Shown here: in pieces, positions 580 through 40,435 of the stretch
How the letters are laid out: each line of letters opens with the position of its first letter
Numbering within the stretch: position 1 is the first letter of the stretch
Assembly (NCBI RefSeq): GCF_003259895.1
Contig: NZ_QLME01000028.1
Span: forward strand, 390 to 43,039
Source of the DNA: Halanaerobium saccharolyticum
Lineage (GTDB): Bacteria > Bacillota > Halanaerobiia > Halanaerobiales > Halanaerobiaceae
Length of the DNA stretch: 42,650 nt
Direction: 5' to 3'
Notes under the pieces: model-generated
Database searches by the model: none
Told to the model about the DNA's origin: nothing
Seen by the model: only the letters and a program-made list of their open reading frames with translations
Position numbers and translations under genes: made by a program

Positions 580-2919
580 ATGTTTAAAACAAGTATTTTG
601 AAGAGAAGTAGAAAGTATTTTATTAGAAGTTCATTTTTTTCTATTGTATTTATTTTTCTAGTTATGTTTTCAGCTACAGCGCTGGCAGAACAGGTTGAAT
701 TTAAATTTTATCCAGCGAAAGTAGAATTTGAGGGTGAAGTTGAGGCTGTATATCTGGCGGGTTCATTTAATGACTGGCAGCCAGCCGACGAGAAGATGAA
801 CGGTCCTGATGAAGATGGTTTTTATACTTTAAAATATAATTTGAGGCCGGGAGAATATCAATATAAGTTTGTAATTAATGGTGAGCACTGGTTTCATGAT
901 CCAGATAATGAGCTAACTACAGCTGATGGGCATGGAGGAAAAAATTCGATTCTTGAGGTTGGAGAAAAGGACTTAGAAAAAGCTCAGGTTGGAGATGGAG
1001 TAATTAATGCAGAATTTGTTTTGCATGATCCAGAAAATAGAGTTTATTTAAATAAATTATCTCAGGATAAGGTTCAGATTAGGCTGGAAACCCGAAAAAA
1101 TGATGTAGAAGCAGTGTCTTTATTGACAAAAATCAATTCTGAAAGAGCCAAAAAAGAGATGTTTTATTACAGTTCAGATAATAAGCTTGATTACTGGACT
1201 ATTGACCTTGATAATTTAAATAAAGCATTGGATTATACTTTTTTAATTGAAGATGCAGATTCTCAACTGGTTTATCATAAAAATGGTAATGGTTTTGATA
1301 AATTAGAATATTATAGCTTTGATCCTGCCGAAACAGCAGTCTTTAAAACACCCGGCTGGGTTCAGAATGCTATTTTCTATCAGATTTTCCCGGATAGATT
1401 TTATAATGGAAATCCAGACAATGATCCAGAGTTAATTGAAACATATAAGAATAAGACTGAAAGATATAAAAACATTGTTCCTAAATGGCATCAGGGAATA
1501 AAGGAAAGCGAAAGTAATCTTATTGATCCTGATAACTTTACTGATCATGATCCATCCATTCATCCTAAATCAGGCTGGCGTATTTTTTATGGTGGAGATC
1601 TGCAGGGAGTAAAGCAGAAGTTTGGTTACCTAAAAGAACTTGGAATTAATGCTATTTATTTTAATCCAGTTTTTGAAGCGACATCAAATCACCGCTATAA
1701 TACAGCAGATTACGGAAAAATTGATGATAATCTGGCAGTTAAAGATGATTTTGAGGCTTCAGAAGAATATTTTATAGAGTTTATACAGAATGCTCATCAG
1801 AAAGACATTAAAATTGTACTTGATGCAGTTTTCAATCACACCGGATTGGAATTTTTTGCCTTTGAAGATGTTGTAGAAAAAGGTAAAACTTCAGAATACA
1901 GTGATTGGTTTTATATTGATGATTATCCAATAACCACATTATATGAACAGCGTACTGAAAATAAAGAGCCAAATTATGAAGGCTGGGCTGGTTATGGGAA
2001 TCACCCAGTTTTAAATTTAGATAATCCAGAAGTAAAAGATTATATCTATCAAATAACAGAAAAGTGGATGGATCCTGATGGAAATGGGAATCCCGATGAT
2101 GGAATTGATGGCTGGAGATTGGATGTGGCAAATGATGTTAAAGCAAGACATCCTGAATTTTGGCGTGAGTGGAGAAACTTTGTTAAAGAAATTAATTCAG
2201 AAGCCTATATTACCGGCGAAATTTGGAATAATGCTGCTGGGTATCTCCAGGGAGATGAATTTGATGCAGTAATGAATTATCGATTTAGAGAGGCAGCCCT
2301 TGCTTTTATAGCTGAAGAAAGAATAGATGCTCAGAGTTTTATAAACAGAATCAATGCGCCAAATTTAGATTATCCAACACAGGCAATTTTTAGTCTACAG
2401 AATTTAATTGATAGTCATGATACAGAAAGATTCTTATACAGTTCTCAAGGAAATAAAGATAAGCTTAAAATGGCTGCTGCACTGCAGTTTACCTATCCAG
2501 GGGCACCAATGATCTATTATGGAACAGAAGTTGGTCTAAGCGGGGCTTCAGACCCGGACACACGCAGAACCATGATCTGGCAAAAAAGGCCAAATGGAAA
2601 TCAACCTGATCAGGAGCTTTATGAGTATTACAGTAAATTAGCCAGCATCAGAAAAGAAAATGAAGTTTTAAGAACCTCTGGAGTTGAATTTGAAACTTTA
2701 GGATCTGAGCCAAAAATTGTAATAGTAAAAAGAAAAGATAAAAATGATGAAATCTATACAATTTTGAATGCTGCTTCAGAAGAAAAAACTTTGCAATTAG
2801 TTATTGAAGATGCTGAACAAGTTATAGAGCTGCTGACAGAAGAAAAATATAAAGTTGACAATGGGCAACTAAAATTAAAACTGGACTCTTTTTCTGCTAA
2901 AATCTTAAAAATAAAATAA
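580..2919 (+). CDS. Secreted GH13 alpha-amylase / neopullulanase-type enzyme with N-terminal CBM48-like module
   Basis: The 779-residue product should hydrolyse alpha-1,4 (and possibly alpha-1,6) linkages in starch or maltodextrin outside the cytoplasm. A basic N-terminus and hydrophobic stretch ending in ATALAEQ form a signal peptide over about 36 residues. Residues of about 45-125 (VYLAGSFNDWQP, YQYKFVINGEHWFHDP) are a glycogen-binding-type beta-sandwich module. The GH13 barrel has region I DAVFNH (415-420), nucleophile D515 in GWRLDVA, acid/base E547 in TGEIW and D614 in IDSHDTERF; all catalytic residues are present. The ATG is preceded by AGGGGG. The gene lies between two transposase relics, so it may have been mobilised. 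Substrate preference within GH13 cannot be read from sequence. Confidence 0.9.
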   Translation: MFKTSILKRSRKYFIRSSFFSIVFIFLVMFSATALAEQVEFKFYPAKVEFEGEVEAVYLAGSFNDWQPADEKMNGPDEDGFYTLKYNLRPGEYQYKFVINGEHWFHDPDNELTTADGHGGKNSILEVGEKDLEKAQVGDGVINAEFVLHDPENRVYLNKLSQDKVQIRLETRKNDVEAVSLLTKINSERAKKEMFYYSSDNKLDYWTIDLDNLNKALDYTFLIEDADSQLVYHKNGNGFDKLEYYSFDPAETAVFKTPGWVQNAIFYQIFPDRFYNGNPDNDPELIETYKNKTERYKNIVPKWHQGIKESESNLIDPDNFTDHDPSIHPKSGWRIFYGGDLQGVKQKFGYLKELGINAIYFNPVFEATSNHRYNTADYGKIDDNLAVKDDFEASEEYFIEFIQNAHQKDIKIVLDAVFNHTGLEFFAFEDVVEKGKTSEYSDWFYIDDYPITTLYEQRTENKEPNYEGWAGYGNHPVLNLDNPEVKDYIYQITEKWMDPDGNGNPDDGIDGWRLDVANDVKARHPEFWREWRNFVKEINSEAYITGEIWNNAAGYLQGDEFDAVMNYRFREAALAFIAEERIDAQSFINRINAPNLDYPTQAIFSLQNLIDSHDTERFLYSSQGNKDKLKMAAALQFTYPGAPMIYYGTEVGLSGASDPDTRRTMIWQKRPNGNQPDQELYEYYSKLASIRKENEVLRTSGVEFETLGSEPKIVIVKRKDKNDEIYTILNAASEEKTLQLVIEDAEQVIELLTEEKYKVDNGQLKLKLDSFSAKILKIK

Positions 2920-2929
2920 TAGTTCAAAA

Positions 2930-3040
2930 AAAGGGGCTGTACTGTTTAGTTAACGATAATCACTCCAAATCAAAAATTACAGTACAGTTTCTGAGACCAG
3001 CAATAAAGAATAAAAATTTTTCGAGTTAAAAAGCCCCTTT
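2930..3040 (+). repeat. Nested inverted repeat after the amylase gene
   Basis: The outer arms AAAGGGGCT (2930-2938) and AGCCCCTTT (3032-3040) and the inner arms CTGTACTGT (2937-2945) and ACAGTACAG (2979-2987) are perfectly complementary. The unit starts 10 bp after the amylase stop and could stop transcription, although no clean T-run follows. The same AAGGGGCT motif recurs at 3094-3101, at the start of the next transposase relic, so this may instead be a small non-autonomous element using that IS end. Confidence 0.5.
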
Positions 3041-3093
3041 AATTCAATATTTTTGATAAAATAGAATAAAGATACAAAAATATTTTTTCGAAT

Positions 3094-3720
3094 AAGGGGC
3101 TGAATTAAGTGAACAGGAAACAGAGCAGAAATATTACCTATAGATAATCTTGAAAAAATTAGAACATATATGATTAAAGAATTATTTAAAAAAAGATGTT
3201 TTGAAAAGTATAGATATCTGGGTAAATGATATTTCCTATCAAAATCACAGTCTAAATATGGTAGAATTAAAGGAAATGAAAGATGATGAAGAAAAGAACT
3301 TTGTATTTTTAAGCAGTATAAGAATTATGAGCAGTAATGTTGTAGAGATTCGTAGGTTTGGACGTAAACGCTGGAAGATAGAAAATGAGGGGTTTAATGT
3401 TCAAAAAAATAAAGGTTATGAGCTGGAGCATATGTACAGCAGAGATCCAAATGGAATGAAAAATCATTATCTATTAGAACAAATTTCTCAGATGATAAGG
3501 CAGTTGTATGATAAAAGAGTAAAAAAATTAAAATTATTAAGATCCAGCATAAAAAGAATGTCTTCCCTGCTGTTAGAGGCATTTCGCAACAAAGTTCTAA
3601 CAGGGGAAGACATCAAATACGTAAATCTTACCAAAATACAGATAAGATTTACAACGTAGGATTTAATAATATACTAAAAGGATGTGATTGGCAATAGCAG
3701 AAGCCAAAATTTTAAAATAA
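3094..3720 (+). pseudogene. Decayed DDE transposase, copy B
   Basis: The relic begins near AAGGGGCTGAATTAA, a candidate IS end. It reads the transposase N-terminus (AEILPIDNLEKIRTYM, then FEKYRYLGK) up to a stop codon at about 3227. The C-terminal third (3201-3659) is open in a different frame and contains the RWKIENEGFNVQKNKGYELEH motif. From 3153 to 3720 it aligns with copy A (1-560) with few substitutions and one 8-bp difference, so both copies share the same internal deletion. The shared lesion shows that the element was copied after it was already defective. Confidence 0.75.
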
Positions 3721-3875
3721 ATATAAATTTATAGGATAGTCTTTTTAGCAAAAAAAAAGAGAAATACTAATTGTAATAAAAACCCATAAATAGAAATAAA
3801 AGATTAAAGATTTTAACTTATATAATTCTGCAATTAATTTTTACTCTTTATTGCTGATTTAGAATAAATAAAAAT

Positions 3876-3904
3876 TAGACACATACCTGTACCTTTTATA
3901 TAAT
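3876..3904 (+). promoter_or_regulatory. Candidate promoter of the cytoplasmic GH13 gene
   Basis: A -35-like TAGACA (3876-3881) and a perfect -10 TATAAT (3899-3904) are 17 bp apart, 38 bp before the proposed start codon. The stretch from 3721 to 3875 shows nothing else recognisable. Confidence 0.5.
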
Positions 3905-3942
3905 GTAATTAGCTAGATAAAAATCAGGAGGTGCAGTTAAGT

Positions 3943-5715
3943 TTGATTTATTCATCAATTCGACATGATTATAAAAATGAAATGCAGTCAGTAATTGATT
4001 TAAATACTTTAGAAATAACATTAGAAGCTGCTCGAGATGATATATCTCGAGTAGTATTAATTTATGGTCCCCGGTATTCTGATAATAAAGATGCCAATAA
4101 TAAAATTGAAATGAATTTAAAATATCGGAGTAAATACCATGATATTTTTTCTGTCAGGTTAAATTTAGATGACACCCGGTTGAGATACTTATTTTATTTA
4201 GAAGATAATGGGGGGGACAGAGTCTGGTATAATGAAAAAGGATTTTTTAAAACCAGACCCCAAGGATATGATTCTGGTTATTTTCAAAAAGCTATTATCA
4301 ACAAGTCTGATGTAAAAAAGTCTCCCGAATGGGCCCAGGACGCTGTTATATATCAAATATTTCCCGATCGATTTTTTAGAGCAGATTCTAATAATTATAA
4401 AAATAGGGAATGGAATCAGTTACCCAAAAAAGATTCAATTTATGGTGGAGACCTCAAAGGTATAATTAAAAAATTGGATTATTTGAAGGAATTGGGGATT
4501 AACACTCTATATTTAACTCCAATTTTTAAATCTCCCAGTAATCATAAATATAATATTGATGATTACTATCAAATTGATCCTAACTTTGGCAGTATTGAAG
4601 ATGCAAAAGAATTATCAAAGGCAGCGAAAGAAAAAGGTATTAAATTAATTATTGATGCAGTATTTAATCATTCAGGCTCTAATTTTTTTGCATTTGAAGA
4701 TTTATTAACAAAAGGTGAAAAGTCGAAATATATGAACTGGTATTTTCCAGAAAATTTTCCCATTTCAAAAGAAGAGGTGAATTATTCAACATTTGCTAAT
4801 GATATCCAGGATATGCCTCGCTTAAATTTAGATAATCCTGAAACTCAGGAATATTTTTTAAAAGTTGCTGAGTACTGGACAGCTGAACTTGACTTAGATG
4901 GCTGGAGATTGGATGTTGCAGATGAAGTGTCAAGAGAATTTTGGGAAAAATTTAGAAAAAGAGTCAGAAAAATTAATAATGATATTTTTATTATTGGAGA
5001 AGTTTGGTATAGAGCTTCAAACTGGCTAGATGGTAATACCTTTGATTCAGTTATGAATTATGATTTGCAGCGTGATATTTTTTCATTAATAATCGAAGAA
5101 AATATGGATGTCGATCAATTTAGTTCTCAAATTCAGGAAAATTTTAGACATTATCACCCTGAGAAGCCAAATATTTTAGTTAATTTATTAGACAGTCATG
5201 ATACAGCAAGATTTAATTGGGAATTACGAAATTATAATAAAAAAATTATTGATCAAAAAATGAAGTTTGCTATATCTCTGCAGTTCTTATTACCCGGGAT
5301 CCCTCTGGTATATTATGGTAGTGAAGTTGGATTAACAGGTGCTGATGATCCTGACTGCAGAAGGACTATGATCTGGGACAAAAACAGGCAAAATCGAGAC
5401 CTTTATAATTATTATAAAAAAATTATTTCTTATTATAATCAAAATAGAGATTTAAGAAAAGGAGACTATAAAGAACTTTTTATGGATCCTTTAAATAAAA
5501 TTTTAATATTTTCAAGAAAAAATAAAAAAAGCAATGAAAATAGTACAGTAGTTATCATAAATATGTCTGATAAAAAGCAAAATATTAATGATAAAAATAT
5601 AATTGAGCTCTTAAAAAACAAAAATTTATCCTTCTCAATCAATAATAACAATAATAATTCTTTTAATAATAACTGTCTAAAAATAGATAAAAAGCAAATT
5701 TTAATTTATTCATAA
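3943..5715 (+). CDS. Cytoplasmic GH13 cyclomaltodextrinase / neopullulanase / maltogenic amylase-type enzyme
   Basis: A 590-residue protein without a signal peptide, expected to cut imported maltodextrins or cyclodextrins inside the cell. It has region I DAVFNH, nucleophile D324 in GWRLDVA, acid/base E353 in IGEVW and D420 in LDSHDTARF. It matches the secreted enzyme across the barrel but lacks the signal peptide and CBM48-like module, so it is a paralogue. TTG at 3943 is chosen because AGGAGGTG (3926-3933) lies 9 nt upstream; the in-frame GTG at 3931 is inside that ribosome site. The C-terminus ends in an Asn-rich low-complexity tail. A LacI-type regulator follows directly and may control it. 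Confidence 0.87.
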   Translation: MIYSSIRHDYKNEMQSVIDLNTLEITLEAARDDISRVVLIYGPRYSDNKDANNKIEMNLKYRSKYHDIFSVRLNLDDTRLRYLFYLEDNGGDRVWYNEKGFFKTRPQGYDSGYFQKAIINKSDVKKSPEWAQDAVIYQIFPDRFFRADSNNYKNREWNQLPKKDSIYGGDLKGIIKKLDYLKELGINTLYLTPIFKSPSNHKYNIDDYYQIDPNFGSIEDAKELSKAAKEKGIKLIIDAVFNHSGSNFFAFEDLLTKGEKSKYMNWYFPENFPISKEEVNYSTFANDIQDMPRLNLDNPETQEYFLKVAEYWTAELDLDGWRLDVADEVSREFWEKFRKRVRKINNDIFIIGEVWYRASNWLDGNTFDSVMNYDLQRDIFSLIIEENMDVDQFSSQIQENFRHYHPEKPNILVNLLDSHDTARFNWELRNYNKKIIDQKMKFAISLQFLLPGIPLVYYGSEVGLTGADDPDCRRTMIWDKNRQNRDLYNYYKKIISYYNQNRDLRKGDYKELFMDPLNKILIFSRKNKKSNENSTVVIINMSDKKQNINDKNIIELLKNKNLSFSINNNNNNSFNNNCLKIDKKQILIYS

Positions 5716-5782
5716 ATTTGCGTTATTACTTATAAAGCTGATATGATTAATTTGTCAAATCAAATTATGAGGATTGATAAAT

Positions 5783-6802
5783 ATGCCTACTTTAAAAGAT
5801 GTAGCAAAAAAAGCCGGAGTCGCACCTTCTACAGTTTCTCGAGTTATTAATAATAGTTCCCGCATAAGTGAAGAAACTAAAGAAAAAGTAAGAAAAATCA
5901 TGGATGAGATTGGCTACCATCCAAATATTAATGCGCGAAACCTTGTTAAACAGAGATCACATAATCTGGGACTGGTAATTCCCTATTCAACAGAAGAGGC
6001 CTTTGCTGATCCCTTTTACTCAGAAATTTTACGTGGAATTGGAGTTCTTGCCCATTCAAAAGGATTTAATTTGCTTTTATTGACCAGTAGTGGGGAAGAA
6101 GAGGAAAAAAAGACGGTTTTAAATGCAGTTAGAGGGAAACAGATTGATGGAGTTTTGCTTTTAAGAGCAAAAAAAGAGGATCAGTTAATTGAGGAATTGA
6201 CTAAACTTAATTTTCCTTTTGTGATTGTGGGAAGACCGGAAGAAAAGGATAAATATTATTGGGTTAATAATGATAATATTGCTGCAAGTGAGAGAGTTGT
6301 TGATTATCTAATTAAAAATGGTCACCGAAATATAGCGATGATTGTTGGTGACAAAAATTATATAATGAATGATGATCGGCTGCAGGGATATAAAAATTCT
6401 TTTCAGAAAAATAATTTAAATATTAATGAAGATTTAATTGTTCAATCAGAAATGATAGATTATCAGAGTATTTATATGCTTTCTCAAAAAATGATTAAAG
6501 AACATCCGGAAATAACTGCTTTTTATGGAATGAGTGATACAATGGCCTATACAATTATGCAGGCTATGAATGATCTACAGGTTAAAATACCTGAAGATAT
6601 CTCGATAGTTGGTTTTAATAATAATCCTGTTTCCAAGTTGATTTCTCCACCCTTGACCACAGTGGATATTAATATTTATCTTCTGGGAAACAAGGCAACT
6701 GAATTATTGATTGGAGTTATAAATGGACAGATCAAAAAATATGAGCATACAATTGTCCCTGCAAATATTATTGAAAGAGACTCCTGTAGGAACTTAAATT
6801 AA
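5783..6802 (+). CDS. LacI-family transcriptional regulator
   Basis: The protein binds operators as a dimer and responds to a sugar ligand. Residues 1-50 are a LacI helix-turn-helix and hinge (PTLKDVAKKAGVAPSTVSRV, then NARNLVKQ), followed by a periplasmic-binding-like sensor domain ending with the usual DISIVGFNN and LTTVDIN segments. ATG at 5783 is preferred over TTG at 5774 because TGAGGA (5768-5773) is 9 nt upstream of the ATG and touches the TTG. It lies just after two maltodextrin enzymes, which suggests a MalR-like role; the ligand is inferred only. A short inverted repeat AATTTG/CAAATT at 5749-5766 just before the start could be an autoregulatory operator. Confidence 0.88.
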   Translation: MPTLKDVAKKAGVAPSTVSRVINNSSRISEETKEKVRKIMDEIGYHPNINARNLVKQRSHNLGLVIPYSTEEAFADPFYSEILRGIGVLAHSKGFNLLLLTSSGEEEEKKTVLNAVRGKQIDGVLLLRAKKEDQLIEELTKLNFPFVIVGRPEEKDKYYWVNNDNIAASERVVDYLIKNGHRNIAMIVGDKNYIMNDDRLQGYKNSFQKNNLNINEDLIVQSEMIDYQSIYMLSQKMIKEHPEITAFYGMSDTMAYTIMQAMNDLQVKIPEDISIVGFNNNPVSKLISPPLTTVDINIYLLGNKATELLIGVINGQIKKYEHTIVPANIIERDSCRNLN

Positions 6803-6829: not shown

Positions 6830-6856
6830 CCGACAGACTTATACTGTCGGTTTTTT
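6830..6856 (+). terminator. Rho-independent terminator after the LacI gene
   Basis: Perfect 7-bp arms CCGACAG (6830-6836) and CTGTCGG (6844-6850) are followed by six T, 28 bp after the stop codon. Confidence 0.88.
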
Positions 6857-7189: not shown

Positions 7190-8251
7190 ATGGCAGATAA
7201 GAATAAGAGTTTTATAGAAAAATATTTTAATATAAAAAATTCACTGCTATATTTTGGGCTTTTTCTTTTAATTTCTGCTGTAACCCTTTATTACATTAGA
7301 AGGGTGTTTTCTCAGGGTAGTAATTTAAATATTATTTTTAGTTTTCCAAATGAAATTTTAATTTCTCTTATAGTTTTGTTGTTTTCTTATTTTGCTATAG
7401 ATGCTTTAAGACTATTTTTTGTTTTAAAGACATTAAATGCAGAAATTTCTTTCTGGAATGTTTATAAACTGGTATTTATTAATATCTTTATCTCAAATAT
7501 AACTCCACTGGCTACAGGTGGTGGTTTTGCTCAGGTCTACTTTTTGCAAAAAAAAGGAATTCCACTTGGCAAATCTTCAGCTGCCATATTAATTAGAACA
7601 TTATTATCAGCAACCATGCTTTTTTTGAGTGTACCACTGATAGTTTTTAGAAATCAATCAATGCTTAATCTGCTGCCCGGTGACTATGTATTTGTTTATT
7701 TAGCAATATTTATGGGACTTTATATTTTAATATTTTATTTTTTGATTTTTAAAGTTAGATTTATAATGAAATTAATTTATAAGGTTTTTTATTTTTTAAG
7801 ATCGAAACATCTAATAACCAGAAAAAGATTTAGAAAGATTATCAGATATATTTTTAAACATCTACAACTTTTTTCTGAAGATCTGGCTTTTTTTATTCAG
7901 GGTAAAAAGATTTTTGTTTTCCTATCATTCTTATTTACAATAATATTTTTAGTAGCAGAATTTTCTTTTTCATATCTGCTCCTTAATGGAATGGGTTATC
8001 AAGTAGCTTTTTCTAAAGTTTTAACTTTACAGGTTCTTGTTGTCTTTATCATGTATTTTGCCCCGACACCAGGAGCAGCTGGAATAGCAGAAGGTGGATA
8101 TTCCCTCTTATTTGCCAGATTTGTAGATCAAAGTGATTTATTCCCACTATTATTTTACTGGAGATTTTTCAGTAAATATGTAGGTATTTTTATTGGTATT
8201 TTTGTCTTTTTCTATTTAATTATTAAAGGGGGAGTAAAAGTTGAAGAGTAA
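7190..8251 (+). CDS. YbhN / LPG-synthase-TM family membrane protein (flippase-like)
   Basis: A 353-residue integral membrane protein with about eight hydrophobic segments. The conserved family patches NITPLATGGGFAQVYFLQKK (residues of about 102-121) and APTPGAAGIAEGGY (near 288) are present, as in the membrane domain associated with lysylphosphatidylglycerol synthase and the YbhN/AglD2 proteins. Relatives have been linked to movement of lipid or lipid-linked sugar across the membrane. It overlaps the following glycosyltransferase fusion by 11 bp, so both are made from one mRNA and probably act on the same glycolipid. The start follows a GGGG-type ribosome site. The exact substrate is unknown. 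Confidence 0.8.
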   Translation: MADKNKSFIEKYFNIKNSLLYFGLFLLISAVTLYYIRRVFSQGSNLNIIFSFPNEILISLIVLLFSYFAIDALRLFFVLKTLNAEISFWNVYKLVFINIFISNITPLATGGGFAQVYFLQKKGIPLGKSSAAILIRTLLSATMLFLSVPLIVFRNQSMLNLLPGDYVFVYLAIFMGLYILIFYFLIFKVRFIMKLIYKVFYFLRSKHLITRKRFRKIIRYIFKHLQLFSEDLAFFIQGKKIFVFLSFLFTIIFLVAEFSFSYLLLNGMGYQVAFSKVLTLQVLVVFIMYFAPTPGAAGIAEGGYSLLFARFVDQSDLFPLLFYWRFFSKYVGIFIGIFVFFYLIIKGGVKVEE

Positions 8252-10460
8252 AAGTAAAATTTATTTATTAATTTTAATTATAATTATTTTAATCTTAATC
8301 AGCTATAAGATTTATGCTCCCTATACAATTCAGGATTTTAATGCGGTTAATGTTCGAAACATGGATATTATAAAAAATAGAATAGAAAATGAGGATTATT
8401 CTTTTGCAGTAGTTGGAAATATAGAGAACTCAATTGCAATTTTTGATAATAGAATTCTGGAAAAAATTAATCAAAAAAATGCTGATTTTATTATCTCTAC
8501 AGGAAATAATCTTCGGGATGGTGATGAAAGTAAATATCGAGTTTTTTATAGAACTTTAGAAAAACTAAATATACCTTTTTTAACTGCTATTGGCAGTAGA
8601 GAAATTAGAGATGGTGGAAATGAAAATTTTTATAAATATTTTGGTCCTTTTTATTACTCTTTTCACATAAATGACTCTTATTTTATTTTCTTAGATACTA
8701 CTGAAAACACAAATCCAGACTGGCAGCAGCAGTGGCTGGTAAATGTACTGGAAGAAGCTGCAGCTTATGATAAAAAGTTTGTTATAATGAATAAAACTCC
8801 GCTGAAAATTGATGCAGAGTACTTACTGGATGACAGTATTAAATATATTGAATCTGCTGATTTAAGAAACTTTTATCAAAATATTTTTGCAGAATACAAT
8901 GTTGAGGCTGTATTTTCTTCTAATCTGGAAATATTTCACCAGGAAAATATAGAAGGTGTTAATTATTATGTTAGTGGTGGTGCTGGTGGAGAATTGATTT
9001 TTGATAATAAAAAAAGCTTCTATCATTATTTACTGGTAAATGTGACAGCAGATGGGGTAGATGTCAGTGTTGAACGCCTGGAGAGCAATCCGGGAACTTT
9101 TTCGAAATTAATGGTTAATATCTGGGTAGCTTTCCAATCTTTTTTCTATGCAAATTATATTAATATTTTATTAGTCTTATTTATTGGCTCATCAATTTTT
9201 TATATTTTCCACAGAGAAATTAATAAAGAAGTAGATTATTATCGTGACTTTGCCTATGCAGAAGATGAAATAAAAGTTCAAAAATTAAAAATTGCGATGT
9301 TTACAAATAACTATTTTCCAGTTATTGGGGGAGTACCTATCTCAATTCAGCGCCTCTCTAAAGCATTAAGAAAAAGAGGACATGAGGTTAAGATCTTTGC
9401 CCCAGAATATAAAGAGCAGACTGAAAATGAAGAAAATATTATTCGGTGTAATTCCTTATATCATTATCAGGAATCAGGACTTGAGTTTCCAGTAACTAAT
9501 ATTTATTCACCCCAGATAAAAAAAGAGTTTGTAGCTGAAGATTTTGATTTAGTTCACGCTCATCATCCATTCTGGCTGGGTAATAAGGGCCGTAAATTAT
9601 CAGAAAGGTTTAATCTTCCGCTTGCTTTTACTTACCATACGCGTTTGGAAAAGTATGCACATTATGTTCCTAATATCTTATTTATGCGAAAATTATTTGC
9701 TAATCGTCTTTCGCATTTTTTAATCAAAAGCTTTGCCAATAAAACTGATGCAGTTTTTGCTCCAACCGAATCGACTAAGGAATATCTGCGTAATGTTGGT
9801 GTTAGTAGGTATATTAAAGTTATGCCGACCGGAATTGACTTTGATTATTATAAATGCAGTCAGGAAAAAATTGATAATTTGCGAAGCAAATTGATCGGTG
9901 ATTCTGAACATCTTTTGATTTCAGTCTCAAGATTATCTAAGGAAAAGAATTTATATTTTATTCTGGATGGAATAAAAAGATTGAAAGAAAAGAGTGACCT
10001 TAATTTTAAATTGATAATTATCGGCAGCGGCTCAGAAAAAGAATCTATTGAGCGGTTTATTAAAGACAATGATTTAGAAAATTATATTGAACTAATTGGA
10101 GCAGTTGACTTTAAAGAAATGGCAAAATATTATCTTGCTTCAGATTTATTTGTTTTTGCTTCTACAACTGAGACCCAGGGTATGGTTCTTTTAGAAGCTA
10201 TGGCCGGCTATAATCCAGTAGTTGCTGTTAAGTCAAGTGGAATAGATGATGTAATAGAAAATGACTACAATGGATATAAAACTGAAGAAGATATAGAAAA
10301 ATGGAGCAGCAGAATTGAAGAATTACTTAATAATAGTGATAAATTTAAGCAGAGCTCTCAAAATGCTCGTAAAATCGCTGAGAGTTATTCCATTGAAGAG
10401 ATGGGTGCAAAAGCGGAAAAACTTTATTATAAAATATTACAGCTTAAAAAGTACCAATAA
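8241..10460 (+). CDS. Fusion: membrane-anchored degenerate metallophosphoesterase domain plus GT4 glycosyltransferase
   Basis: 739 residues. Residues 7-26 are a membrane anchor. Residues of about 54-280 follow the layout of calcineurin-like phosphoesterases (FAVVGN, IISTGN, FYKYFGPFYYSF, VEAVFSS), but the expected metal ligands are replaced: N60, N89, S119-R120, N184, N228 and E230 stand where Asp, Asp, Asn-His, His, His and His are usual. A second membrane segment lies at about 304-323. Residues 348-735 are a GT4 glycosyltransferase of the diacylglycerol glucosyltransferase type, with TNNYFPVIGGVP (355-366), VMPTGIDFDYY and the E644-x7-E652 donor motif. TTG at 8241 follows GGGGGAG. It likely makes a membrane glycolipid, and the first domain is probably structural or regulatory. 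Acceptor and sugar are inferred. Confidence 0.8.
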   Translation: MKSKSKIYLLILIIIILILISYKIYAPYTIQDFNAVNVRNMDIIKNRIENEDYSFAVVGNIENSIAIFDNRILEKINQKNADFIISTGNNLRDGDESKYRVFYRTLEKLNIPFLTAIGSREIRDGGNENFYKYFGPFYYSFHINDSYFIFLDTTENTNPDWQQQWLVNVLEEAAAYDKKFVIMNKTPLKIDAEYLLDDSIKYIESADLRNFYQNIFAEYNVEAVFSSNLEIFHQENIEGVNYYVSGGAGGELIFDNKKSFYHYLLVNVTADGVDVSVERLESNPGTFSKLMVNIWVAFQSFFYANYINILLVLFIGSSIFYIFHREINKEVDYYRDFAYAEDEIKVQKLKIAMFTNNYFPVIGGVPISIQRLSKALRKRGHEVKIFAPEYKEQTENEENIIRCNSLYHYQESGLEFPVTNIYSPQIKKEFVAEDFDLVHAHHPFWLGNKGRKLSERFNLPLAFTYHTRLEKYAHYVPNILFMRKLFANRLSHFLIKSFANKTDAVFAPTESTKEYLRNVGVSRYIKVMPTGIDFDYYKCSQEKIDNLRSKLIGDSEHLLISVSRLSKEKNLYFILDGIKRLKEKSDLNFKLIIIGSGSEKESIERFIKDNDLENYIELIGAVDFKEMAKYYLASDLFVFASTTETQGMVLLEAMAGYNPVVAVKSSGIDDVIENDYNGYKTEEDIEKWSSRIEELLNNSDKFKQSSQNARKIAESYSIEEMGAKAEKLYYKILQLKKYQ

Positions 10461-10546: not shown

Positions 10547-12736
10547 ATGTCAATTGAATTTTTTAAAGAAAGAAAAATTTTTCATCTGCAAAATGAAGAA
10601 ATAAGTTATGCAATCAAAATTTTGAAAAATGGTCAGTTAGGCCACCTTTACTGGGGTAAAAAAATTAAAAATGCTGAAAGACTGAATCGGTATCCAATAA
10701 CTCAGCACAGACCCTATGAGGCTTATGCGGTTAAAGACGACACTGGTTTTATCTTAGAAAATATAGCCCGGGAATATCCTTCTTTTGGGCAGTCAGACTT
10801 TAGAGAGCCAGCCTACCAAATCAAAGCAGAAGATGGCTCAATTATCAGTGATTTAAAATATAGGGATCATCAGATTTACAGAGGTAAAAAAGATTTAAAG
10901 GGGCTGCCAGCTACTTATGTTGAAAAGGATTCTGAAGCAGATAGCCTTGAGATAACACTTTATGATGAGGTCTTGGATTTAGAAGTGACTTTAATCTACA
11001 CAATCTTTAGAGATTATCCGGTAATTACTAGATCAGCTAATTTTAATAATAACGGTAAACAAAATATTAATCTTAAAAGAGCTCTTTCAATGAGTGTTGA
11101 TTTTGAGAATAGAGATTTTGAATTACTGCAGTTATCAGGTGCCTGGGGTAGAGAAAGAGATATTCTGCGGCGTTCTCTGGATCAGGGAATAACTAAGATT
11201 GACAGTAAAAGAGGGGGCAGCAGCCATCAGCAGAATCCATTTGCAGCTTTAGTAGAACCAGATACAGATGAATATAGTGGGGAAGCATATGGGTTCAGTT
11301 TAATTTATTCTGCTAACTTTATTGCTCAGGCTGAAAAAAATCATTATGGAAAAACGAGAATGATCATGGGGATTAATCCCTTTAATTTTAGCTGGCTGCT
11401 GGAAAGCGCTCAAAGTTTCCAGACACCAGAAGTTGTGATGAATTATTCTGATCAGGGCTTAAATAAGATGTCTCAGAATTTTCATCAATTATACAGAAGT
11501 CGTCTGGTACAGGGCAGACATCGAGATCAGGAAAGACCTGTTCTAATTAACAACTGGGAAGGTACTTATTTTGATTTTAATACAGATAAAATATTAGAAA
11601 TGGCAGAAGCTGCTTCAAAAGTTGATATTGAATTATTTGTACTTGATGACGGCTGGTTTGGGAAAAGAAATGATGATACTTCTTCTCTTGGTGACTGGTA
11701 TGTAAATGAAGACAAACTGCCTGGCGGTCTGGAATATTTGGCTCAAGAAATTAATAAACTGGGAATGGATTTCGGTCTCTGGTTTGAACCGGAAATGATA
11801 TCTCCTGATAGTGACTTATATCGTGAGCATCCAGAGTGGTCTATTCAGCTTGAAAATAGAGAATCTTCACTTTCCCGTCAGCAGTTAATTTTAGATTTAA
11901 GCCGCAGAGATGTTCAGGATTATATAATAGAGAGAGTGTCTGCAATTTTAAATAAAGCAAATATATCCTATGTTAAATGGGATATGAACAGACCGATGAC
12001 TGAATACGGCTCTCTGAAACTAAAAGCCAAACGTCAGCGAGAATTGAACCACCGCTATATTTTAGGTCTTTATCGAGTTTTAGAAGAAATAACATCCCGA
12101 TTTCCTGATATATTATTTGAAAGCTGTGCCGGTGGGGGAGGCCGCTTTGATCCAGGGATGCTCTATTATATGCCTCAAACCTGGACCAGTGATGATACTG
12201 ATGCAGTAGAAAGATTAAAAATTCAATATGGAACTTCAATGGTTTATCCGGCATCCTCTATGGGAGCTCATGTTTCAGCAGTGCCCAATCATCAGGTGGA
12301 GCGCAGTACTTCACTTAAGATGAGATATGATGTGGCCAGTTTTGGGAACTTAGGCTATGAGCTGGATATAACAGAGTTAAATCCTGATCAAATAAAAGCT
12401 GTAAAAAACCAGGTTAAAAATTATAAAGAAATAAGAAGACTTGTCCAATTTGGTGATTTTTATAGACTTCAGAGTCCATTTGAAAGTAATTTTACAGCCT
12501 GGTCTTTTGTAGCTGAAGCTAAAGAAGAAGTGTTAGTTGGATTTTATCAGATTCTTGCTTCTCCCAATCCCAGAGAACAAAGAATTAAATTGAAGGGCTT
12601 AGATGCTGACTCTGATTATAAAGAGCTTAACTCAGCCAATATTTATGGTGGGGATGAACTAATGAATTATGGAATTAAAATTCCCTATCTCAAAGGAGAT
12701 TTTTCTTCTAAAGTTTGGAGATTCCAAATGATTTAA
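10547..12736 (+). CDS. GH36 alpha-galactosidase
   Basis: A 729-residue cytoplasmic enzyme (no signal peptide) that removes terminal alpha-1,6-galactose from raffinose-family oligosaccharides or melibiose. Residues of about 1-330 form the N-terminal beta-supersandwich, followed by a TIM barrel. Nucleophile D479 is in YVKWDMNRP and acid/base D549 is in WTSDDTDA, 70 residues apart as in characterised GH36 enzymes. ESCAGGGGRFD, DDGWFG and LWFEPEMISPDSDL are further GH36 signatures. Length is normal for the family. The start follows GGAGGG. It is a single-gene unit with its own upstream palindromes and a downstream terminator. Confidence 0.93.
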   Translation: MSIEFFKERKIFHLQNEEISYAIKILKNGQLGHLYWGKKIKNAERLNRYPITQHRPYEAYAVKDDTGFILENIAREYPSFGQSDFREPAYQIKAEDGSIISDLKYRDHQIYRGKKDLKGLPATYVEKDSEADSLEITLYDEVLDLEVTLIYTIFRDYPVITRSANFNNNGKQNINLKRALSMSVDFENRDFELLQLSGAWGRERDILRRSLDQGITKIDSKRGGSSHQQNPFAALVEPDTDEYSGEAYGFSLIYSANFIAQAEKNHYGKTRMIMGINPFNFSWLLESAQSFQTPEVVMNYSDQGLNKMSQNFHQLYRSRLVQGRHRDQERPVLINNWEGTYFDFNTDKILEMAEAASKVDIELFVLDDGWFGKRNDDTSSLGDWYVNEDKLPGGLEYLAQEINKLGMDFGLWFEPEMISPDSDLYREHPEWSIQLENRESSLSRQQLILDLSRRDVQDYIIERVSAILNKANISYVKWDMNRPMTEYGSLKLKAKRQRELNHRYILGLYRVLEEITSRFPDILFESCAGGGGRFDPGMLYYMPQTWTSDDTDAVERLKIQYGTSMVYPASSMGAHVSAVPNHQVERSTSLKMRYDVASFGNLGYELDITELNPDQIKAVKNQVKNYKEIRRLVQFGDFYRLQSPFESNFTAWSFVAEAKEEVLVGFYQILASPNPREQRIKLKGLDADSDYKELNSANIYGGDELMNYGIKIPYLKGDFSSKVWRFQMI

Positions 12737-15005: not shown

Positions 15006-15051
15006 GTGCCAGAGTAATTTTAACAAAAAATAAAATAGAGAGGTGAAAATA

Positions 15052-16230
15052 TTGAAAATAAAAGCAAAAAATCTCTATAAGATTTTCAATGGTAATGACC
15101 AGGAAGAAATTGAACTGCTCAAAGATGGTATGAGCAAAGATGATATTTTAGGAAAAACTGGGGCCACTGTTGGAATCAATAATGCCAGCTTTGAAGTTGA
15201 AGAAGGGGAAATTTTTGTGATTATGGGGCTCTCCGGTAGTGGTAAATCAACACTACTGCGCTGTATTAACAGACTGGTAGAACCAACTTCTGGATCAGTT
15301 GAAGTTGATGGGACAGATGTTATGGATTTAAATAAAGAGGAACTAAGGGAATTTAGAAAAGAAAAGTTTGGAATGGTTTTTCAACATTTTGCTCTTTTCC
15401 CATACCGAACTGTTTTAGAAAATGCAGAATTTGGCTTAGAAATTGAAGGTGTAGATAAAGAAACAAGAAAAGAAAAGGCGATGACTGCTCTAAAACAGGT
15501 TGGTCTGGAGGGTTATGAAGATCAAATGCCGGATCAGCTTAGTGGTGGAATGCAGCAGCGGGTTGGTCTTGCCCGGGCACTTGCTGTTGATACTGATATA
15601 CTGCTGATGGATGAGCCTTTTAGTGCTTTAGACCCTCTGATTAAAAAAGACATGCAGGACAAACTGCTGGAGCTGTATGAACATATAGATAAAACAATTG
15701 TATTTATCACTCATGATCTGGATGAGGCATTAAAATTGGGGGATAGAATTGCTATCATGAAAGATGGAGAAATTGTTCAGGTAGGAAATCACGAAGAGAT
15801 TTTGACAAATGCCGAAAATGATTATGTTGCAGAATTTGTGCAGGATGTTAATCGTTCTCGTGTTTTAACAGCTGAAGATATTATGGATAAACCAGAGGCT
15901 GTATTATACAAGCAGGATGGTCTGAGAACCGCTCTACACAAAATGCGTCGTAATGAATTGGGCAGTATCTTTGTACTGGGAGAAAATAGAGAGTATAGAG
16001 GTATAGTTACAATTGAAGACGTGGTAGAATCCATTAATAAAGATAAAGAAAACCTGGATGACATCATAAAAGAAGTGCCATTAGCAGAGCCTGACGAAAG
16101 TGTTAATGATCTGTTTTCAAAAATAGCTGATATAGATACACCATTACCAGTATTAGATAAAAATAATAAACTAAAAGGAGTTATTGTTAAAACACATGTA
16201 GTTGCCAATCTGGCTTCCGAAAAAGTTTAA
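15052..16230 (+). CDS. Glycine betaine/proline ABC transporter ATPase with CBS domains
   Basis: 392-residue ProV/OpuAA-type ATPase that powers osmoprotectant import. Walker A GLSGSGKST (about residues 58-66), Q-loop FQHFALFPYRT, signature LSGGMQQRVGLARAL and Walker B ILLMDEPFSALDP are intact. The C-terminal part carries two CBS motifs (DIMDKPEAVLYKQDGL; LPVLDKNNKLKGVI), the module that senses ionic strength in OpuA. TTG at 15052 is preferred because GAGAGGTG ends 6 nt upstream; the in-frame GTG at 15043 lies inside that site. It is first in an operon with the binding protein and permease, behind a terminator-containing leader. Confidence 0.92.
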   Translation: MKIKAKNLYKIFNGNDQEEIELLKDGMSKDDILGKTGATVGINNASFEVEEGEIFVIMGLSGSGKSTLLRCINRLVEPTSGSVEVDGTDVMDLNKEELREFRKEKFGMVFQHFALFPYRTVLENAEFGLEIEGVDKETRKEKAMTALKQVGLEGYEDQMPDQLSGGMQQRVGLARALAVDTDILLMDEPFSALDPLIKKDMQDKLLELYEHIDKTIVFITHDLDEALKLGDRIAIMKDGEIVQVGNHEEILTNAENDYVAEFVQDVNRSRVLTAEDIMDKPEAVLYKQDGLRTALHKMRRNELGSIFVLGENREYRGIVTIEDVVESINKDKENLDDIIKEVPLAEPDESVNDLFSKIADIDTPLPVLDKNNKLKGVIVKTHVVANLASEKV

Positions 16231-16298
16231 AATAATTTTTAAAATAGTTTATAAAATTTACAGTTAAATTAATTAATAATATCTCTGGAGGGATATAA

Positions 16299-17237
16299 AT
16301 GAATAAGATAAAATTAATTTCAACTTTGCTCATCGTTCTTTTAGGATTTGGAATATTTGCCGCAGTACCACAGGTTGCAGCTCAGAATAATACAATTAAC
16401 TTTGGTTATGTACAGTGGCCTGGTGTAACAGTAAAAACACATGTTGCAGCAAAGATTGCTGAATATTTAGGTTATGAAACTGAAATGACAGCAGCTTCTC
16501 AGGCAATTATCTTTAAAAGTCTAGAAACTGAAGATCTGGATGTATTTTTAGGTAACTGGCTGCCAACAATGCAGATGCATTTTAATGAATACCAGGAAAA
16601 AGGTGTAGTTCATAATGTAAGAGTAAATTTAGAAGATGTAGTTTATCAGACAGCAGTACCTGAATATGTTTATGAAGCTGGAGTTCAGTCTCTTGCTGAT
16701 TTAAATGAACATGCTGAAAAATTTGATAATAAAATTTATGGTATTGAACCAGGGAATGATGGAAATATAATCATTCAAGAAGCTATAGATAATAACACTT
16801 ATAATTTAGGTAACTGGACCCTGCAGGCCAGTTCCACTGCTGGTATGCTTTCGTCTGTCCAGAGAGCAGTTAATAATAAAGAATGGATAGCTTTTAATGG
16901 CTGGAAACCTCACTATATGAATGTGATGTTTGATCTTAAATATCTTAAAGATCCAGAAGGTATCTGGGGAGAAAATGACAGTGTATATACTGTAGCCAGA
17001 AATGGTTATCAGGATGAAAATCCTAATTTCTATAAATTCCTGGAACAATTTACAGTAACTGCTCCAATCCAGAATCAGTGGGTTGATGAATATCAAAATA
17101 AAGATCGTGATCCAGAAGCCGTCGCAGAAGAATGGATTGCTAATAATTTAGATGTTGTCAATCAGTGGGTTTTTGGAGTAAAAAGTACTGATGGTCGAAT
17201 GGGCAGAAAAGTAATAGCTGAAATAGTAAATAACTAA
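16299..17237 (+). CDS. Glycine betaine/choline-type periplasmic substrate-binding protein
   Basis: 312-residue ProX/OpuAC-family protein that captures quaternary-ammonium solutes for the transporter. Residues 1-29 form a signal peptide ending AAVPQVAAQ; there is no lipobox cysteine, so the mature protein would be soluble in a periplasm, as in a diderm cell. Trp-rich segments such as FGYVQWPGVTVKTHVA and FLGNWLPTMQ are typical of betaine-binding pockets. GGAGGG precedes the ATG. In this operon the binding protein lies between ATPase and permease, unlike the common proV-proW-proX order. Confidence 0.9.
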   Translation: MNKIKLISTLLIVLLGFGIFAAVPQVAAQNNTINFGYVQWPGVTVKTHVAAKIAEYLGYETEMTAASQAIIFKSLETEDLDVFLGNWLPTMQMHFNEYQEKGVVHNVRVNLEDVVYQTAVPEYVYEAGVQSLADLNEHAEKFDNKIYGIEPGNDGNIIIQEAIDNNTYNLGNWTLQASSTAGMLSSVQRAVNNKEWIAFNGWKPHYMNVMFDLKYLKDPEGIWGENDSVYTVARNGYQDENPNFYKFLEQFTVTAPIQNQWVDEYQNKDRDPEAVAEEWIANNLDVVNQWVFGVKSTDGRMGRKVIAEIVNN

Positions 17238-17287
17238 ATCACATAAATAAGTAATATTATTATAAAGTAGTGCTGAACAAGTAAAGG

Positions 17288-17319
17288 CTGGTGGTGTCAA
17301 TTAATTTTGATGCCACCAG
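17288..17319 (+). other. Intercistronic hairpin between binding-protein and permease genes
   Basis: Arms of 13 nt, 17288-17300 and 17307-17319, pair fully if two G-U pairs are allowed, with a 6-nt loop. No T-run follows, so it is more likely an mRNA stability or processing element. Such an element could keep the binding protein in excess over the permease. Confidence 0.65.
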
Positions 17320-17334
17320 TTAAAATTTAATAGG

Positions 17335-18183
17335 ATGGTGATTATTATTAACAGTATTATTGAACTTTTAACAACCAAAATTCCTCTAGGGAACTGGGTT
17401 GAAAATTTAGTTAATTTTTTAATTAATAATTTCAGCGGACCTTTAAACAATTTTTCATCTTTTATAGAATTTATTGTAAATGGAATAGAGTCAATACTTG
17501 CTTTTCCACACCCTCTGGTATTAATTGCAATTTTTGCAGTTGCTGCCTGGAAACTTAAGGGGAAAAACATGGCGATATTTGTAGCTCTTGGACTATCACT
17601 TGTTTTAAATCTGGGAATGTGGGAACCTCTAGTAATAACTCTGGCTTCAATAATTACATCAGTTCTAATTGCGCTGTTTATTGGAATTCCAATAGGAATT
17701 ATTAAAGCACATAATAAAGTTGTTGATCTAATTACTCGACCAATTCTGGACTTTATGCAGACAATTCCACCATTTGTTTATTTAATTCCTGCTTTAATGT
17801 TCTTTGGGCTTGGTAATGTATCAGGAGTAATTGCAACTGTAGTTTTTGCAATTGCACCACCAATAAGATTAACCTATCTGGGAATAAAACAGGTAGATGA
17901 AGAGTTAGAAGAAGCAGGTCATGCTTTTGGAGCTAACTGGTGGCAGATTTTATTAAAAATTGAGCTTCCAGGGGCTATGCCTTCTATCATGATGGGAATT
18001 AATCAGTGTATTATGCTTTCTCTATCCATGGTAGTTATTGCAGCTATGATCGGGGCTGGAGGACTTGGTAAACCAGTGCTAAGATCTCTAAATGTTGTTG
18101 ATATTGGACTTGGTTTTGAAGCCGGTCTTGGTGTAGTAATTATTGCTATGGTACTTGATAGAATGTTTGGTAGAGATTCGTAA
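17335..18183 (+). CDS. Glycine betaine ABC transporter permease
   Basis: 282-residue ProW/OpuAB-type inner-membrane permease. It starts with a short N-terminal segment (LLTTKIPLGNW), followed by about six membrane segments. The coupling loop is EEAGHAFGANWWQILLKIEL, contacting the ATPase, and it ends with MIGAGGLGKPVLRSL. It completes the osmoprotectant importer. The start is uncertain: the ATG at 17335 and the next GTG both lie within the ribosome site AGGATGGTGAT, so translation may begin slightly downstream, possibly at an ATT codon near 17347. Confidence 0.9.
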   Translation: MVIIINSIIELLTTKIPLGNWVENLVNFLINNFSGPLNNFSSFIEFIVNGIESILAFPHPLVLIAIFAVAAWKLKGKNMAIFVALGLSLVLNLGMWEPLVITLASIITSVLIALFIGIPIGIIKAHNKVVDLITRPILDFMQTIPPFVYLIPALMFFGLGNVSGVIATVVFAIAPPIRLTYLGIKQVDEELEEAGHAFGANWWQILLKIELPGAMPSIMMGINQCIMLSLSMVVIAAMIGAGGLGKPVLRSLNVVDIGLGFEAGLGVVIIAMVLDRMFGRDS

Positions 18184-25124: not shown

Positions 25125-26061
25125 AAAAATCAGGCATCTCATCAATAGCATTTTTCTTTTCTTCTGTATCAACATGAGTATAAATCTGGGTTGTAGATAG
25201 ATTGGCATGACCTAAAAGGTCCTGCAGTACTTTGATGTCTTTAGTCTGACGATAAAGAGTAGAAGCAAAAGTATGGCGCAGTTTATGAGGGGTTATTTTC
25301 TCAGCTCTGCTTAAACCCGCTTTTTTTGCATATTTTTTGACAAAAAGCTGAATAGTCCTCGGATTAATTCTTCTGCCGTGACGGGAAATAAAAACTGCCT
25401 GACGGGCATCATTTTCTTTAATTTCAATTGAATTTCTTTCCCGCATATAACGCCTGATTGCCAGAACCACATCATGGTGCAGCGGCACATAACGTTCCTT
25501 TTTACCCTTACCATAAAATTTAATGGAGCCATCTTCAAAATCAATATTATCAAAATCAAGATTGACTAGTTCAGAGATGCGGAGACCTGCATATAAAAAG
25601 AGCTTAACTATTGCCAGATCCCGAAGGCGGTTGATTCCACCATGTTCATCAATAGCCTGGATGAACTTTTGAGCTTCCTTTAATTTTAAATAAATTGGCT
25701 CCAGTCTGGTATCTGTTTTACTGCTTTCTATTGCCTCAGCCGGATTTTTAGTGACAATTCCATAATGAAGCAGATACTTGTAAAAAGAACGGACAGCAAA
25801 GAGTTTTCTGTTTCTGGTAACCGCCTTATTATCATTAACAATTACTGCATCAGCCAGAAACTCTGAGATATCAAGTCGATCAACCTCATCTGGTTTAAAA
25901 CCCTCTTTAAAATCAAGTTCTTCCAGCAGATATTTATGTAATTGATGTAGATCACTATCATATTCCTTAATTGTTAGTTTCGAATAACCTTTTTCTACAT
26001 CCAGATATTTTTTGAATTTATTTACAGCCTGTAAAAAATTAAGTTGAGAAATTTTAATCAC
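25123..26061 (-). CDS. Xer-type tyrosine recombinase
   Basis: 312-residue site-specific recombinase. An N-terminal core-binding domain (FKKYLDVEKGYSKLTIKEY) precedes the catalytic domain, which has Arg in LFLYAGLRISELVNL, Lys in YGKGKKERYVPL, HKLRHTFA, LGHANLSTT and nucleophile Tyr in IYTHV. This is the Xer/chromosome-dimer type, but context alone does not show whether it is the housekeeping XerC/D. The GTG start at 26061 sits inside AAAGGAAGTGATT, which matches an extended ribosome site, so initiation a few codons later is possible. It stands alone, convergent with the lysine cluster. Confidence 0.87.
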   Translation of the reverse strand: MIKISQLNFLQAVNKFKKYLDVEKGYSKLTIKEYDSDLHQLHKYLLEELDFKEGFKPDEVDRLDISEFLADAVIVNDNKAVTRNRKLFAVRSFYKYLLHYGIVTKNPAEAIESSKTDTRLEPIYLKLKEAQKFIQAIDEHGGINRLRDLAIVKLFLYAGLRISELVNLDFDNIDFEDGSIKFYGKGKKERYVPLHHDVVLAIRRYMRERNSIEIKENDARQAVFISRHGRRINPRTIQLFVKKYAKKAGLSRAEKITPHKLRHTFASTLYRQTKDIKVLQDLLGHANLSTTQIYTHVDTEEKKNAIDEMPDF

Positions 26062-40364: not shown

Positions 40365-40435
40365 TAGCATGAAACCCCCGTTTCTGGTATAATTGAATAG
40401 CAAAAAACAAAAAACCATAACGGAGGTTCATGCTA
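40365..40435 (+). promoter_or_regulatory. IS4-element end: promoter and ribosome-site-masking inverted repeat
   Basis: TAGCATGAA (40365-40373), continuing to CCGTT (40382), pairs with 40419-40435, which contains the ribosome site GGAGG and the A of the start codon. An extended -10 TGGTATAAT (ending at about 40393) lies between the arms. Transcripts entering from outside would fold and hide the start; transcripts from the internal promoter would not. Confidence 0.6.

Follow-up and report, generated by a model that had tools for sequence, protein, structure and literature searches.

Bacterial modules that combine a glycolipid synthase with a flippase have begun to be described only recently, and among the questions that they raise is how synthesis at the inner leaflet keeps in step with the state of the outer one. 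The closest described systems are GpgSDF (PMC12713373) and HexSDF (PMC10128005), where, in the available parts of both reports, a modified glycolipid can arise from the joint action of a glycosyltransferase (GT), an accessory enzyme and a protein of the YbhN/MprF-like kind, the flippase step being predicted. In GpgSDF of Pseudomonas aeruginosa, a GT4 enzyme and the predicted flippase GpgF (COG0392 AglD2/YbhN) share one operon and act on a glycerolipid; the third protein is a deacetylase, predicted to be cytoplasmic, and the genes are separate (PMC12713373). HexSDF of Clostridioides difficile comprises a glycolipid GT, a polysaccharide deacetylase as the accessory enzyme, proposed to act outside, and an MprF-like flippase (PMC10128005). 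Here, these systems are compared with a locus of Halanaerobium saccharolyticum found in a window of 42,650 nucleotides (the whole stretch of DNA analyzed; contig NZ_QLME01000028.1, positions 390 to 43,039). It consists of a gene for a YbhN-type membrane protein followed by a gene for a fusion protein, in which a metallophosphoesterase (MPP)-like domain placed between two transmembrane (TM) helices precedes a GT4 domain.

The locus resembles both systems in holding a GT and a YbhN/MprF-like gene in one unit, although the scores are below the cut-offs of the GpgSDF models, NF053787 and NF053789 (113.6 of 480 bits for the GT with the GlcNAc-phosphatidylglycerol synthase model and 57.9 of 320 bits for YbhN). 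Unlike GpgSDF, its third component has the MPP fold and is joined to the GT, and the available part of the HexSDF report describes an accessory protein that is not an MPP, with no fusion and no dead domain. No deacetylase gene was found in the unit, the neighbors being GH13, LacI, melibiase, transport or metabolic genes. Also, full-text literature searches, limited to open-licence papers, returned no paper on a pseudo-MPP fused to a GT. We propose, with a probability of about 0.6, that the two genes form a glycolipid synthase and flippase module, where the MPP-like domain would be a periplasmic, non-catalytic binding or docking domain. That this domain is a pseudo-enzyme has a high probability, because the fold is kept, the ligands are lost in all 18 aligned copies, these copies form one clade and purifying selection acts on the domain. 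A bacterial and widely shared pseudo-MPP fused to a transferase would thereby be at hand.

Fold and metal-ligand positions of the N-terminal domain

Single-sequence searches missed the domain: the Pfam search of the window protein gave no Metallophos match at E ≤ 0.1, below the gathering score of PF00149, and phmmer of the N-terminal region against the Protein Data Bank (PDB) gave no match at E ≤ 1. The MPP fold is thus seen only with profiles and in the predicted fold. PF00149 was reached by two of ten relatives (best 1.1e-4), and a profile built from these ten retrieved PDB entries of purple acid phosphatases at 5e-6. With the model of residues 28-340 (pLDDT 77.8, pTM 0.75), Foldseek retrieved Rv0805, GpdQ and purple acid phosphatases with E-values down to 1e-12, and VIA comparison with GpdQ and pig purple acid phosphatase gave a Z of 21.4 and an rmsd of 2.5-2.6 Å across 213-219 residues. 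The predicted structure therefore makes an MPP fold well supported for the N-terminal domain. The fold is common to GpdQ, Rv0805 and the purple acid phosphatases, whereas the catalytic metal site is theirs only.

This site was read at the D / GD / GNH / H / GHxH motif, which we take to be the ligand and catalytic set of calcineurin-like MPPs. Aligned to the intact homologues, where the positions are D60, D89, N119-H120, H184, H228 and H230, the window protein has N60, N89, S119-R120, N184, N228 and E230, keeping none of the seven residues. Among 24 unfused rows, the same columns are occupied by D, D, N, H, H, H and H, at 100% in all cases except position 120 (96%). These rows were picked by hand; those omitted as partial, weak or near-duplicate are L057 (with Ala at the third-His column), L065, L069, L070, L071, L080 (with Asp at that column), L087 (with Asp at both GHxH columns) and L095-L103. 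In the pseudo-domains (18 aligned copies, excluding two partial G003 copies that lack the front of the domain), N60, N89 and N228 are present in 18 of 18, positions 119, 120 and 230 are variable, and E121 is invariant, being Asp and in some cases Glu in the relatives. None of the 18 has an intact ligand site. Moreover, 28 of the 42 columns conserved at 80% or more in the unfused relatives hold the same consensus in the pseudo-domains, and 12 of the 14 changed columns are motif residues or belong to the loop after H184 (60, 89, 119, 120, 121, 184, 186, 189, 190, 191, 228 and 230), the remaining two being Y139F and A250G. As judged from this alignment, the ligand loss is targeted and lies within a preserved fold.

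These results agree with the original prediction, made from the letters of the window, of a pseudo-enzyme domain that has lost its metal ligands. Its reading of the ligand positions was correct in every residue, the surrounding positions that it described as conserved are indeed largely retained, and both checks that it proposed gave concordant answers, the predicted structure matching active family members and the alignment of homologues showing losses common to all copies. Two contrary outcomes that it had named, a different set of conserved ligands and the same fusion with an intact metal site, were not found in the loci examined, where all 42 open reading frames (ORFs) matching both the MPP profile and a GT are of the pseudo type, a number that includes many duplicates of the same copies.

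A live enzyme with an altered site, which would bind another cation (Ca, Na or K) or act without metal and still modify the glycolipid, is improbable. The Asn and Glu oxygens of N60, N63, N89, N90 and E121 are still clustered in the sequence motifs of the site, and three hosts are halophilic; however, the site has lost the two histidines of GHxH, its third histidine and the catalytic Asn-His pair, all by replacement, and we know of no metal-free MPP-fold hydrolase.

The domain could also be a pure scaffold without a small ligand, its only task being to dock YbhN, or else some partner in the envelope, to the transferase, much as GAP50 serves as an anchor. GAP50 of Plasmodium (3tgh) is taken here as the pseudo-enzyme precedent. 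It has a purple-acid-phosphatase fold and, in the available part of the report, is described as a membrane anchor (PMC8949495); its likeness to the domain is one of fold (VIA Z of 21.1), and it differs from the fusion in being eukaryotic and having no GT joined. This close match, the constant YbhN linkage described below and the drift of three of the seven ligand columns, which as a set are not above background conservation, argue for a scaffold. On the other hand, N60, N89, N228, N63, E121 and the glycine run 246-250 are kept at the old site in three phyla, which is beyond what a scaffold needs, and the explanation seems conceivable but on the doubtful side.

Selection, distribution and history of the fusion

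The ratio of nonsynonymous to synonymous substitutions (dN/dS) was computed for residues 50-285 with eight relatives; it is 0.09-0.14 for seven of these comparisons and 0.27 for the eighth, and for the GT it is 0.06-0.10 where dS is finite, as estimated by a simple counting method with dS near saturation. The pseudo-domain is under purifying selection. Neutral decay of a remnant without function after the fusion could be read from the loss of all ligands and from a domain that evolves faster than the GT, but the dN/dS values are far below 1, the frames are open despite a large divergence (36% identity to the Deferribacterales copy) and the same Asn residues are found in three phyla. Neutral decay, being already contradicted, is hardly credible.

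A search of the class with the domain profile matched 12 of 59 genomes, 11 of which hold the fusion: nine of the 12 genomes of the genus of the window, plus G013 and G056, G039 having only a distant MPP. In a draw of 398 genomes from the phylum, 38 match, with the fused form in four Halanaerobiaceae (G000, G007, G011 and G013) and unfused or distant MPPs in the rest. Outside this phylum, 20 of 50 genomes of Deferribacterota (the phylum of L041) match, with pseudo-copies in G443, G458, G459, G460 and G492, as do two of three in the phylum of Candidatus (Ca.) Mcinerneyibacterium (L040), one with the fusion. The total is 20 pseudo-copies in 17 genomes from three phyla (Halanaerobiaceae, Halanaerobacter, Ca. 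Mcinerneyibacterium and Deferribacterota); the G492 copy ends with its contig before the GT, so the fusion itself is not seen there.

Wherever the DNA preceding a copy is available (17 copies, across the three phyla), it holds a YbhN ORF directly upstream, which supports the earlier proposal that the pseudo-domain works with the YbhN protein. Because the other neighbors differ between genomes, the YbhN and fusion genes travel as a unit.

Some copies of the pair have further features. In G458 (L107:9567-10694), a transposase ORF lies between the YbhN and fusion genes, both flanking frames being open. In H. saccharolyticum WC1, tandem YbhN-type genes, 43% and 81% identical to that of the window, are located 5' of the fusion (L035:1833-2870 and 2875-3933). 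WC1 and the genome recorded as H. congolense have two module copies each, and a gene for a conserved membrane protein of ~338 residues comes after the second copy.

An unrooted tree was built from 38 MPP domains, of which 17 are pseudo rows (L090 being left out) and 21 are unfused rows chosen by hand; all pseudo rows fall on one side of a branch with support 100/100. Within this clade, the copies from Deferribacterota branch off separately (93/91), and Halanaerobacter (L039/L011) pairs with the metagenome-assembled genome (MAG) of Ca. Mcinerneyibacterium (L040) with support 100/99, a pairing across phyla that points to horizontal transfer. The unrooted GT tree (12 fused and 19 unfused rows) also places the fused rows on one side (100/99), their neighbors (100/98) being five unfused GT4s (L012-L016), of which four lie within 1.5 kb of a YbhN gene. 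The genomes of these five were not matched by the pseudo-domain profile. Since YbhN and GT4 neighbors exist without the pseudo-domain, the pair probably preceded the fusion, and the MPP domain would have joined it once; for the question of when the fusion arose, raised with the original prediction, the trees thus suggest a single joining.

Three hosts are halophilic, namely Halanaerobium, G458 and, presumably, the Mcinerneyibacterium MAG. G458 is taken as the halophile Flexistipes sinusarabici (PMC3236037). Halophily was considered as an explanation, and no claim is made for it.

A different arrangement is present in two other Deferribacterota, G454 and G456 (L104:5357-8485 and L106:5141-8260), where three genes with overlapping ends follow the order GT, MPP and YbhN. 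In this case, the GT is of the monogalactosyldiacylglycerol (MGDG) synthase type (PF06925, 7e-23 and 7e-26), the MPP, encoded at 6313-7365 in L104, is a TM-MPP-TM protein of 351 or 347 residues with an intact site (PF00149), and the YbhN protein matches PF03706. G453 has an intact MPP without GT and YbhN neighbors. The intact trio protein reads GDNKNS where the fusions have GNIENS or GNIKNS, and the trio proteins, together with those of G282, G209 and G179, are the highest intact scorers with the pseudo profile (116-136 bits). Going by these genes, the same three functions are encoded either by three genes, the MPP being live, or by two, the MPP being dead, and the trio is possibly the live counterpart of the fused module. 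It resembles HexSDF, in the available part of that report, in its S-accessory-F order, with an MGDG_synth GT.

The glycosyltransferase and its YbhN partner

Residues 362-711 match Glycos_transf_1 (2.7e-33) and Glyco_transf_4 (5.8e-31) in Pfam. Moreover, the E-x7-E pair E644/E652, with R564, K569 and H466, is invariant in 12 sequences, as checked at the codons. GT-B domains over the cut-off, the E-x7-E pair and the conserved basic residues, the latter two presumably being the GT4 motif, place the domain in GT4, in line with the intact downstream GT4 domain described earlier.

The best NCBIfam match, over the whole length of the domain, is alpha-monoglucosyldiacylglycerol synthase (NF049988, 186.1 bits), a model that, unlike the fusion, has no TM or pseudo-domain. 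When genome G000 (3.3 Mb, the fusion gene being on contig 28) was scanned with the monoglucosyldiacylglycerol synthase model, the fused GT ranked top with 188.3 bits, the next match having 43.5. With 183-207 bits, the fused GT also tops the scores within every fusion genome tested other than G056, and the runner-up has at most 117 bits, second fused copies aside. The exception, G056 (Halanaerobacter), carries a second pair, where an unfused GT4 with 329 bits lies beside its own YbhN (L117:5964-8190). A 182-residue ORF beside this pair resembles, by eye, a CDP-alcohol phosphatidyltransferase. In G006, G010 and G012, which lack the fusion, the best match is 38-44 bits, and MGDG_synth has no match in any Halanaerobiaceae genome tested (11 genomes of the same genus listed, G000 included). 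As for the partner, no PF03706 match other than it was found in seven fusion genomes (G000, G001, G004, G007, G008, G011 and G013); in two genomes without the module, YbhN adjoins methyltransferase-like ORFs, a different setting.

The GT4 might instead catalyze one step in the synthesis of lipopolysaccharide (LPS) or of a polysaccharide for export, a pathway that YbhN and the pseudo-domain would serve. GT4 models of exopolysaccharide, teichuronic acid and LPS also match (58-90 bits), and Halanaerobium has an LPS outer membrane, as stated in the available part of PMC5007114. Nonetheless, the lipid-GT model leads by 64 bits, and genes for a polymerase or transporter of polysaccharide, or for another GT, are absent from the neighborhood, so that such a pathway is unlikely.

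Proposed mechanism

The full-length model (mean pLDDT 74.4, pTM 0.54) is not reliable for domain packing. The simplest topology, suggested by a Lys-rich N terminus and a charged stretch after the second TM helix, would have the N terminus inside, the MPP-like domain outside and the GT inside, and, given the outer membrane of Halanaerobium (PMC5007114), the far side would be the periplasm. The original prediction had the domain bind a lipid phosphate or a partner, or position the transferase, of which the lipid-phosphate binding and the positioning are hypotheses. With domain and transferase on opposite sides of the membrane, contact of the domain with the flipped lipid or the flippase would be more likely than positioning of the donor sugar.

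In the glycolipid synthase and flippase module preferred here, the cytoplasmic GT4 would add a sugar to a lipid acceptor of the inner leaflet, most likely diacylglycerol or a glycosyl-diacylglycerol, and the YbhN protein would carry the glycolipid product across the cytoplasmic membrane. The pseudo-phosphoesterase, anchored in the periplasm by its two TM helices, would hydrolyze nothing and would bind a lipid headgroup or phosphate, with Asn replacing Asp and His, or else the flippase. This binding could couple synthesis to export, or report the state of the outer-leaflet lipid to the transferase. The domain would derive from a catalytic TM-MPP-TM protein that in other bacteria has its own gene within a GT/MPP/YbhN operon.

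Several observations weigh against this reading. At position 184, Asn is present in 15 of 18 pseudo-domains, three copies (G458, G459 and G460) having Cys, and the seven ligand columns taken as a set are not conserved above background (three of seven invariant versus 42 of 218 columns, P 0.14), for which reason no special constraint on the whole Asn set is claimed. The GT is below the curated cut-off of every lipid-GT model; with 186 bits against a cut-off of 400 for the best of them, NF049988, it is not called an alpha-monoglucosyldiacylglycerol synthase. The close GT4 and YbhN pair does without the MPP domain in other genomes, and the module is missing from two near-complete genomes of the same genus, G006 and G010 (99% complete), as well as from G002 (75%). 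Finally, the H. congolense lipidome, in the available part of its report, comprises phosphatidylglycerol, phosphatidylethanolamine, phosphatidic acid, cardiolipin, phosphatidylcholine, triacylglycerol, diacylglycerol, ceramide and hexosylceramide, with no glycosyl-diacylglycerol mentioned there (PMC10782966).

In favor of the glycolipid module, a glycolipid that is a single diacylglycerol derivative in H. praevalens makes up 46.9% of the lipids at 5% NaCl and 43.0% at 25%, according to the available part of PMC3156398; genome G007, taken as this species, holds the fusion. A more speculative and rather unlikely version of the module is a substrate-trapping sensor acting across the membrane, in which a neutral, metal-free Asn pocket on the periplasmic face would hold a lipid headgroup of the outer leaflet and set the activity of the synthase through the second TM helix, tuning the glycolipid to phospholipid ratio after flipping by YbhN. 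If so, the cell would adjust with it the ratio that shifts with salt in H. praevalens. Three natural forms are available for comparison (the GT4 and YbhN pair, the intact three-gene trio and the fused pair with a dead phosphoesterase), so that the contribution of the accessory domain can be put to a direct test.

Gene organization and neighborhood

The features of the locus are collected in Table 1. The TTG start of the fusion gene overlaps the 3' end of the YbhN-type ORF by 11 bases. Given the hairpin that follows the LacI gene, the YbhN and fusion genes may be a two-gene unit of their own. The promoter scan of the window was uninformative (23 found versus 23.7 expected), and no tandem repeats were found near the two genes.

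Table 1. Coordinates of the YbhN and fusion genes and of their parts in the window
Feature	Coordinates	Strand	Basis
YbhN / LPG_synthase_TM flippase-like membrane protein, 353 aa	7190..8251	+	PF03706 1.5e-34, 120.3 bits vs cut-off 33.4
Shine-Dalgarno-like run AAAGGGGGAG, 6 bases before TTG start	8225..8234	+	read from sequence
Fusion protein TM - pseudo-metallophosphoesterase - TM - GT4, TTG start, 739 aa	8241..10460	+	ORF listing, Pfam, predicted models
First TM helix, ~residues 7-25	8259..8315	+	hydropathy peak; helix 3-29 in full-length model
Pseudo-metallophosphoesterase domain, ~residues 50-285	8388..9095	+	predicted fold and ligand-column alignment
Second TM helix, ~residues 304-325	9150..9215	+	hydropathy; helix 306-327 in full-length model
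GT4 glycosyltransferase domain, ~residues 349-735	9285..10445	+	Pfam, NCBIfam, invariant columns
Terminator-like hairpin and T run after LacI gene	6830..6850	+	consensus match only; 4 found vs 1.5 expected

Starch and galactoside genes flank the module in the window (580-6802 and 10547-12736), including two GH13 enzymes, a LacI regulator and a GH36 melibiase; LacI 5' and melibiase 3' of the module are also found in several relatives. A glycine-betaine/proline-type ATP-binding cassette transporter (ATPase with CBS, OpuAC and permease) is encoded nearby at 15043-18183. Also, two phage-type integrases and a DDE transposase are present (25126-26061, 33353-34438 and 40393-41649), and the region from 33 to 42 kb, which has YaaC-like and EcsC-like genes, resembles mobile DNA.

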